Of a DNA stretch of 40,986 nt, positions 38,532 through 40,986 are shown piece after piece. Made by a program: the position numbers and the translations under genes. This DNA is from Actinomycetota bacterium (lineage in GTDB: Bacteria; Actinomycetota; Acidimicrobiia; Acidimicrobiales; CADCSY01): positions 1 through 40,986 of the forward strand of contig JAHWKL010000007.1 of the NCBI GenBank assembly GCA_019347915.1, read 5' to 3'. The first letter of the stretch is position 1, and every line of letters begins with the position of its first letter. The notes beneath the pieces were generated by a model. It did not search any database. It was not told the DNA's origin and saw only the letters and a program-made list of their open reading frames with translations.

Positions 38532-38707
38532 GGCCGCACCTCGTCGAGGGCGTCGCGGGGGCAGACCTCGACGCACGCCAGGCAGCCGGTGCAGCGGGCG
38601 TCGACCACCAGCGGCCGCCCCGGCGCCGGCAGCAGGGCGCCCTCGGGGCAGGTGACCAGGCACAGCCCGCAGGCGGTGCAGCGGTCGGCGGCGACGACCA
38701 CGGTCAT
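38528..38707 (-). CDS. 2[4Fe-4S] ferredoxin
   Basis: A 59-residue bacterial ferredoxin. Two complete cluster motifs, CTACGLCLVTCP and CTGCLACVEVCP, each CxxCxxCxxxCP. ATG at 38707 in an ATGA overlap with cobJ; the stop overlaps cbiC. Buried inside the corrin ring operon, it most likely donates electrons to a cobalt- or corrin-reducing step, perhaps before adenosylation. That role is inferred from position. Confidence 0.9.
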   Translation of the reverse strand: MTVVVAADRCTACGLCLVTCPEGALLPAPGRPLVVDARCTGCLACVEVCPRDALDEVRP

Positions 38708-40986
38708 GGCGTGTACCCCCGGGGCGTGACCATGCGCCCGTCGACCAGGCGGGTGGTCGAGGCCCCCACCACCACGCACGTGGTCATCCCGACCTGCTCA
38801 GGGTCGAGGCCTTCCAGGGTCGTGACCTGCACCTGCTGTCCGGGACGGCCCACGTCGGTGACCACACCGACCGGCGTGGCCGCCGGCCGGTGCCCGAGGA
38901 GGATGCTCCGGGCGGCGTCGAGCTGCCAGCGCCGGCCGGCCGAGCGGGGGTTGTACAGGCTCACCACCAGGTCGGCCCCGGCCGCCGCCCGCAGCCTGGC
39001 CTCGATGGCGGGCCACGGCGTGAGCAGGTCGGACAGGCTGATGCTGGCGTGGTCGTGTCCCAGGGGGGCGCCGAGGACGGCGGCGGCGGCCAGGGCGGCG
39101 GTCACGCCCGGGACCACCTCGACGTCGAGGCCGGGCGCCTCGTCGCCGGCCAGCTCCAGCACGATCGAAGCCATGCCGTACACGCCGGCGTCGCCCGAGC
39201 ACACCACCGCCACCCTCCGCCCGCCGGCGGCCTCGGCCAGCGCCGACTTGGCCCGCACCACCTCGTCGCCGATGGGGCTGGGCAGGACCTCGTGGGCGGG
39301 GCCGAGCAGGTCGGCGCAGGCGTCGAGGTAGGGGCGGTAGCCGATCACCACCTCGGCGCCGGCCACGGCGGCGCCGGCGGCGGGGGTGCGGTGGGCAGCC
39401 CCGCCCGGCCCCAGCCCGACCAGCGACAGGCGCCCGCGAGGACGGGCCCGGCGGGCCACGGCCACGGTGGCGGTGGCGCTCTTGCGCTTGGACACCACCA
39501 GCTCGGCGCCGGGACCGGCGGCCAGCAGGGCGGCGGCCTCGGCCACGCTGGGGGTGCCCACCGCCGAGCGCACCGCGGCGCTGGGTGAGGGGACCTCCAC
39601 CTCGGCCAGGGCGGTGGCGGGGAAGGTCCTCACGGGGACGCCCCGCCCGGCGGCCAGGGCCACCACCGCCGGCTCCGAGGCCTTGAGGTCGACGGTGGCC
39701 ACCTCGGCCAGAGACGCCGGCGCCAGCCCGGCGGCGGCCAGGGCGCCGGCCAGGAGCGCCTCCATGTCGTCGGCCGGGGCCCCCCTGGACGCCCCCACGC
39801 CGGCCACCAGCGACGGCGGCCGCAGCGCCACCACGCCCGGTGCCGGCGACACCAGCCGGTCGGTGACCACCACCCGGTGGGGGCCGTCGCCGGGGACCAG
39901 CCCGGTCGGCAGGGGCCAGCCGCTCGGGTTGTCGACCGCCGGCGCCCGCCCGTCGAGCACGGCGGTGGTGACCCCGGCCACGTCGCCCTCGGCCACGAAA
40001 CCGGGCAGGTCGTCGAGGGCGGGCAGGCCCACGGCGTCGGTGGCGGTGGTGAGGTCACGGCGGGCCGCCCACACGGCGCCGGCGTCGACGGACAGCATGG
40101 CCATCCCGAACAGGACCGGCAGCGCGACGGCCACGACGACGGCCGCGGCCTGCACCGTACGGCCGCCCGCACGGACCACTCCGGGCCCTACCGTCTTCAC
40201 TGCGGTCCCGAAGTGCACGCGCTCCGGATGTAGGCGGCCGGCCAGCTGCCGCCCGACCGCCTGCATCCCCTCGGCGGGCAGGCCGATGGAACCCCGGACG
40301 AAGGACCGCCACAGCAGGTCGACATAGCGGCTGGACGTGACCAGCTCGTCCTCCAGGAGGACCCCGGCGAGGAAGGGACGGAGGAAGCGTTCCAGCGCCG
40401 CCCCGCCCACCCCGGCCTCGCGCAGCGCCGCCTCCCGGACGGCGACCCGGCCCACCATGGCCAGCTGCTCGACGAACAGGTCGCTCTCCTCGGCGACCCG
40501 CTGCTCGGCCTCGGCACGTGCCAGCAGCACCGGCGGCGCCAGCGACCGGACCAGCTCCTCGCGCGAGGCCAGCACCGGTCGCCCCTCGAGCACCCGCTCG
40601 GCCTCGATCAGCGACGGCACCGGCGGCACGGGCGAGCCCTCCGCCGGGCAGCAGCTGCCGGTGCAGACGTAGGAGCTCCATCGGTCGTCGTGGACGTGCA
40701 GCGCCTCCATCAGCGACACCCCGCGCCGCTCCAGCTCACGGACCAGGCCGTCGACCAGCGTCTCCGGGATCTCGCCGTCCACCTCGATCGTCATGAGCGC
40801 CTGCTCGCCTCGACCGGTCCGGTCCACGTGCATCGTCGCCAGGTTGATCCCGCGATCGGCGAACACGCCCGCGATCCGCGCGATCGTCCCGGGGACGTCG
40901 TCCGCGTGCACGATCAGCGTGGGCAGCGCCCCGTGGAGCGAGACGGGAAAGCCGTCGATCTCGGTGACCCGGATGCGGCCGCCCCC
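38704..40986 (-). CDS. cobJ: CbiG-CobJ fusion with anomalous mosaic 5' region (open to window edge)
   Basis: One uninterrupted frame runs from the window edge to 38704. CobJ (precorrin-3B C17-methyltransferase, ring contraction) occupies 38704-~39440: LSLVGLGPGG, GDAGVYGMASIVLEL, VEVVPGVTAALAAAA, SLSDLLTPWPAIE, YNPRSAGR. Before it, ~39440-40047 is the C-terminal two thirds of CbiG (cobalt-precorrin-5A hydrolase): TTATDAVGLPALDDLPGFVAEGD, VGASRGAPADDMEALL, VGTPSVAEAAALLA, VVSKRKSAT. A CbiG-CobJ fusion is well known. The CbiG N-domain, however, is replaced by pieces of other genes (listed separately), so the true product and start cannot be given from this window. Stop overlaps ferredoxin (ATGA). 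Confidence 0.75.
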   Translation of the reverse strand, partial: GGGRIRVTEIDGFPVSLHGALPTLIVHADDVPGTIARIAGVFADRGINLATMHVDRTGRGEQALMTIEVDGEIPETLVDGLVRELERRGVSLMEALHVHDDRWSSYVCTGSCCPAEGSPVPPVPSLIEAERVLEGRPVLASREELVRSLAPPVLLARAEAEQRVAEESDLFVEQLAMVGRVAVREAALREAGVGGAALERFLRPFLAGVLLEDELVTSSRYVDLLWRSFVRGSIGLPAEGMQAVGRQLAGRLHPERVHFGTAVKTVGPGVVRAGGRTVQAAAVVVAVALPVLFGMAMLSVDAGAVWAARRDLTTATDAVGLPALDDLPGFVAEGDVAGVTTAVLDGRAPAVDNPSGWPLPTGLVPGDGPHRVVVTDRLVSPAPGVVALRPPSLVAGVGASRGAPADDMEALLAGALAAAGLAPASLAEVATVDLKASEPAVVALAAGRGVPVRTFPATALAEVEVPSPSAAVRSAVGTPSVAEAAALLAAGPGAELVVSKRKSATATVAVARRARPRGRLSLVGLGPGGAAHRTPAAGAAVAGAEVVIGYRPYLDACADLLGPAHEVLPSPIGDEVVRAKSALAEAAGGRRVAVVCSGDAGVYGMASIVLELAGDEAPGLDVEVVPGVTAALAAAAVLGAPLGHDHASISLSDLLTPWPAIEARLRAAAGADLVVSLYNPRSAGRRWQLDAARSILLGHRPAATPVGVVTDVGRPGQQVQVTTLEGLDPEQVGMTTCVVVGASTTRLVDGRMVTPRGYTP
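40036..40137 (-). other. Mosaic segment 4: TadG-like transmembrane start
   Basis: VVVAVALPVLFGMAMLSVDAG followed by VWAARRDLTTATDA is the membrane helix and first repeat of TadE/TadG-like pilus proteins. It passes into CbiG exactly at TTATDA, a motif that both families naturally contain. Confidence 0.6.
40138..40476 (-). other. Mosaic segment 3: FAD amine-oxidoreductase-like fragment
   Basis: FLRPFLAGVLLEDELVTSSR, then LLWRSFVRGSIGLPAEGM and LAGRLHPERVHFGTAV. These correspond to the substrate-domain middle of actinobacterial FAD-dependent oxidoreductases related to phytoene desaturase/protoporphyrinogen oxidase. The FAD-binding N-terminus and the C-terminus are both missing. Confidence 0.6.
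40477..40752 (-). other. Mosaic segment 2: DUF4192-like fragment
   Basis: LVRELERRGVSLMEALHV, RWSSYVCTGSCCPAEGSPVP and the SREELVRSLAP segment are the centre of DUF4192, an actinobacterial family defined by its RWxSYxC...CCPxEGTP motif. The fragment begins and ends inside the domain. Confidence 0.65.
40753..40986 (-). other. Mosaic segment 1: sdaAB-like ACT domain
   Basis: Residues from the edge read GGGRIRVTEIDGFPVSLHG, TLIVHADDVPGTIARIAG and GINLATMHVDRTGRGEQALM. This is the C-terminal ACT domain of the L-serine dehydratase beta chain, including the GGGxIxITEIDGF linker. Nothing about it fits a cobalamin gene. Confidence 0.7.

Follow-up and report, generated by a model that had tools for sequence, protein, structure and literature searches.

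Does this actinomycetal chromosome encode a protein in which fragments of four unrelated genes run, in one reading frame, into a CbiG–CobJ fusion, or was that chain put together during assembly? The window (40,986 nucleotides) is the entire contig C222 (1–40986) of a 244-contig draft (G000; 2.70 Mb, 85.7% complete, 4% contamination, 72% GC). The initial annotation had placed the patchwork at the end of the window, and position 40986 is the true end of the contig.

Domain chain and joins of the terminal frame

The frame occupies the minus strand at 38704–40986; an ORF check gives 760 codons, with a stop at 38704 and an open end at the contig boundary. Pfam orders its contents, from the contig end inwards, as an SdaAB-type ACT domain (amino acids 23–78 of the ORF, 2.9e-12), a DUF4192 piece (31–191, 7e-19, profile 46–202 of 321), a piece of a FAD amine oxidoreductase (Amino_oxidase, 178–292, 2.6e-10, profile 130–259 of 443), a TadE/G helix (Tad, 280–318; 3.5e-4 within the whole ORF and 1.6e-5, above cut-off, as a separate piece) and finally CbiG_C–CobJ, where CbiG_C (393–511, 8e-32) is followed by TP_methylase (1e-35) and the last domain is cobJ_cbiH (NCBIfam, 1e-86). 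This chain is a real observation, far beyond chance, and the domain searches confirm the in-frame, five-part chain (sdaAB ACT, DUF4192, FAD oxidoreductase, TadG helix, CbiG) of the initial annotation.

When a separate profile is made from the relatives of each family, the refined joins fall at ~40738–40758, 40408–40434, 40123–40149 and 40033–40052. The first foreign piece (40738–40986, minus strand, as are all that follow) matches the C-terminal ACT region of an iron–sulfur L-serine dehydratase beta subunit (SdaAB-like; Pfam ACT 1e-13; NCBIfam sda_beta profile 128–207 of 208; relatives' profile at amino acids 1–83). The second (40408–40758) is an internal fragment of a DUF4192 protein (Pfam DUF4192 1.7e-18, profile 86–178 of 321, for the isolated piece), and the third (40123–40434) an internal fragment of an FAD-dependent amine oxidoreductase, assigned by Pfam Amino_oxidase and by identity to Geodermatophilaceae. 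The fourth (40033–40149) is a TadE/TadG-like N-terminal transmembrane helix (Pfam Tad 1.6e-5, above cut-off, for 40036–40200), which joins native cbiG at 40033–40052 (TCACCACCGCCACCGACGCC, ...TTATDA). Three of the breakpoints proposed earlier (~40040, ~40138 and ~40753) agree with these refined joins, whereas the fourth, ~40477, is off by about 50 bp. Short motifs had been reported as shared at the last two joins; adjacent homologies do overlap there by a few residues, but they do so at all four. Every piece had also been described as cut at both ends, which holds for the three inner pieces, cut inside domains, but need not hold for the ACT piece, whose outer side simply meets the contig end.

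Could the chromosome nevertheless carry the ACT, DUF4192, oxidoreductase, TadG helix and CbiG–CobJ chain as a real, domain-shuffled gene? All 760 codons are open and third-position GC is strong along the whole frame, which speaks for such a gene; against this, each of the three inner pieces is truncated within a folded domain (Amino_oxidase 130–259 of 443, DUF4192 86–178 of 321).

The native fusion and its missing neighbour

The stretch from 38704 to ~40050 is an ordinary CbiG–CobJ fusion without its first ~130 residues, and the only native part of the frame, because the profile of CbiG–CobJ relatives matches it (722 bits, aligning to the last residue of the window's protein) and because identity to a sister genome begins at 40052. 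The feature (38704–40052, minus strand) thus comprises the C-terminal part of CbiG fused to a complete CobJ. In this sister species of the same genus (G001, contig C199), cobL is followed by an intact cbiG, MSALNVPGVPSVLSVSVTERGAAL...AEPVVTTATDAVGLPALDDL. The window shares 92% nucleotide identity with C199 from 40052 inward and has no match outward, where the sister continues with intact cbiG. The N-terminal and central CbiG regions are absent from C222 and present in the sister, and more distant relatives encode complete CbiG–CobJ fusions. A real gene at this locus would therefore possess a CbiG without the conserved N-terminal part that the sister has.

The cobL half is found in the same draft on contig C169, with 93% identity to the sister over 3526 bp. 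This match ends within the CbiT portion of cobL, at C169:499. As homology gives out at 499 on C169 and at 40052 on C222, the two contigs lack ~750 bp of native sequence (the end of cobL and the start of cbiG) that should lie between them. The left end of C169 (L124:1–498) is itself a patchwork, one frame running from CbiE/CobL through a protein-L-isoaspartate methyltransferase fragment (PCMT, 60–132 of 210) to a homoserine-dehydrogenase-like NAD_binding_3 piece (49–113 of 116). That the true cobL flank likewise ends in unrelated scraps counts further against a real shuffled gene. C169 and C222 should meet, yet each of the facing ends consists of unrelated in-frame scraps, a pattern expected of an assembler at an unresolved gap and not of a real gene fusion.

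Origin of the pieces and of their common frame

Parents of the four pieces were not found in the draft, where the best matches reach 31% (ACT) and 32% (the oxidoreductase/TadG stretch), and nucleotide searches within the order and class returned no near-identical parent for any of them. The best relative found for the ACT piece is a Longimicrobium MAG (67% identity over 70 amino acids), the DUF4192 piece is 37–40% identical to Geodermatophilaceae homologues, and the TadG-like piece shares 43% identity with a TadG-like protein of Blastococcus. The nearest parent-like gene of any piece is that of the oxidoreductase, with 72% amino acid identity to Blastococcus litoris over amino acids 185–287 and ~80% nucleotide identity to Goekera and Blastococcus from 40429 down; among 396 sampled genomes of the phylum, its best match is 48%. 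By sequence similarity, then, at least two pieces appear closest to other bacterial lineages (the oxidoreductase to Geodermatophilaceae, the ACT piece to Longimicrobium), and the true donors are probably members of the community that have yet to be sequenced.

Across 84,980 species genomes, the search for relatives took in only loci sharing one of six peptides ('closest' here means closest found). No locus in this peptide-based scan matches more than one piece, a further point against a real gene, and viral contigs yielded no multi-piece locus either. For the organism to encode serial fragments of four unrelated genes before CbiG–CobJ, one would have to invoke recombination that struck short shared motifs again and again and kept the frame each time, a route that we consider wildly improbable; we give a genuine domain-shuffled gene scarcely any credence. 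The chimeric-assembly reading favoured by the initial annotation is borne out: native homology stops at the TTATDA join with the gene intact in the sister, the cobL flank lies on a contig that also ends in a patchwork, and the pieces, whose parents were not found in the draft, resemble different lineages.

How the joins stay in frame can be addressed within the draft. After removal of paralogous pairs, 13- to 21-mers common to unrelated genes of this draft are on the same strand and in frame in 45–68% of cases (17%, or 1/6, at random), because of the strong third-position bias. In-frame joins are therefore expected: the chance of four is ~0.04–0.2, as against 0.0008 at random, before allowing that readers notice in-frame cases only. 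Chimeras made at the bench likewise join unrelated fragments at short homologies, and the piece sizes here (~100–350 bp) are insert-like, which would suit ligation, PCR or whole-genome amplification in place of assembler error. Four serial same-strand, in-frame joins are nonetheless better explained by crossing at shared words in GC-rich coding DNA than by random ligation, and the patchworks sit at contig ends facing the native gap, where true sequence is no longer available to an assembler; a wet-lab origin is accordingly very unlikely, if a shade less so than a real gene. Adapter read-through was considered as a cause and rejected: the contigs scanned contained no Illumina adapter, whether matched exactly or with one mismatch.

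The preferred reading remains that the end ~935 bases of C222 (40053–40986) are, almost certainly, an assembly chimera and not a biological feature. The organism would have an ordinary cobL – cbiG-cobJ cluster whose cobL/cbiG junction failed in coverage, presumably because coverage there was low. An iterative multi-k de Bruijn assembler may then have extended C222 outward, crossing short GC-rich words common to genes of different community members, with the chimera probably carried by low-k edges; the outcome would be pieces of sdaAB, a DUF4192 gene, a FAD oxidoreductase gene and a tadG-like gene strung together. Contigs C20 and C70 (L144:1–127, L151:1–127) are identical for exactly 127 bp at their starts, which fits the mark of an iterative de Bruijn assembler with a final k of 127. 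Misassembly between genomes is documented to arise from conserved sequence that organisms have in common (PMC9661791), and assembly benchmarks commonly contain chimeric nodes and contigs (PMC8171044).

Recurrence at contig ends and comparison with known systems

The end-patchwork defect recurs in the draft, in a minority of ends. Among the contig ends sampled, recurrence is based on domain search for three (C222 right, C169 left and C167 left) and on inspection by eye for two (C26 right and C13 right); most other sampled ends look like ordinary truncated genes. The left end of C167 (L156:1–870) places an IS21 transposase, a mandelate-racemase-like MR_MLE_C piece (2–58 of 219) and Caa3_CtaG (183–236 of 237) in one frame. 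At the right end of C26 (L170:6215–6976), a ThiC match ends at amino acid 209 of 254 and gives way to a secreted-protein-like tail (AQQQTP...LRAQREELDRVRREREEL), probably another chimeric end. At that of C13 (L137:6993–8051), a molybdopterin oxidoreductase Fe4S4 fragment lies beside an opposite-strand ABC-transporter-like stretch; this end is probably chimeric too, out of frame.

Two further ends carry repeats. The right end of C6 (L131:8237–8488) is repetitive: one strand reads as HHHD repeats, the opposite strand as WWWS repeats. The left end of C239 (L163:1–150) is a dispersed repeat, with 86–89% identity to several sites in C244 (L165:2143–2332), and repeats of this latter kind probably break the assembly.

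As biology the C222 patchwork is of no importance; it is useful as a caution. Assembly scraps at the contig ends of GC-rich drafts may stay in frame and pass for fusion proteins of several domains, since the short words common to unrelated GC-rich genes lie mainly in the same reading frame. Searches for gene fusions in such drafts should treat any ORF left open at a contig end with suspicion.

Set against known systems, the locus resembles two. Its native part, 38704 to ~40050, is a normal member of the CbiG–CobJ fusion proteins (cobalt-precorrin-5A hydrolase and precorrin-3B C17-methyltransferase), fused in relatives too, but the C222 version is without the first ~130 CbiG residues and has unrelated sequence in their place. 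Its outer part is akin to inter-genome chimeric metagenome contigs, built on de Bruijn chimeric nodes (PMC8171044, PMC9661791), in that sequence of different organisms would be joined at short shared words and native synteny is broken; it differs from these in having several short pieces in series with one reading frame kept throughout.
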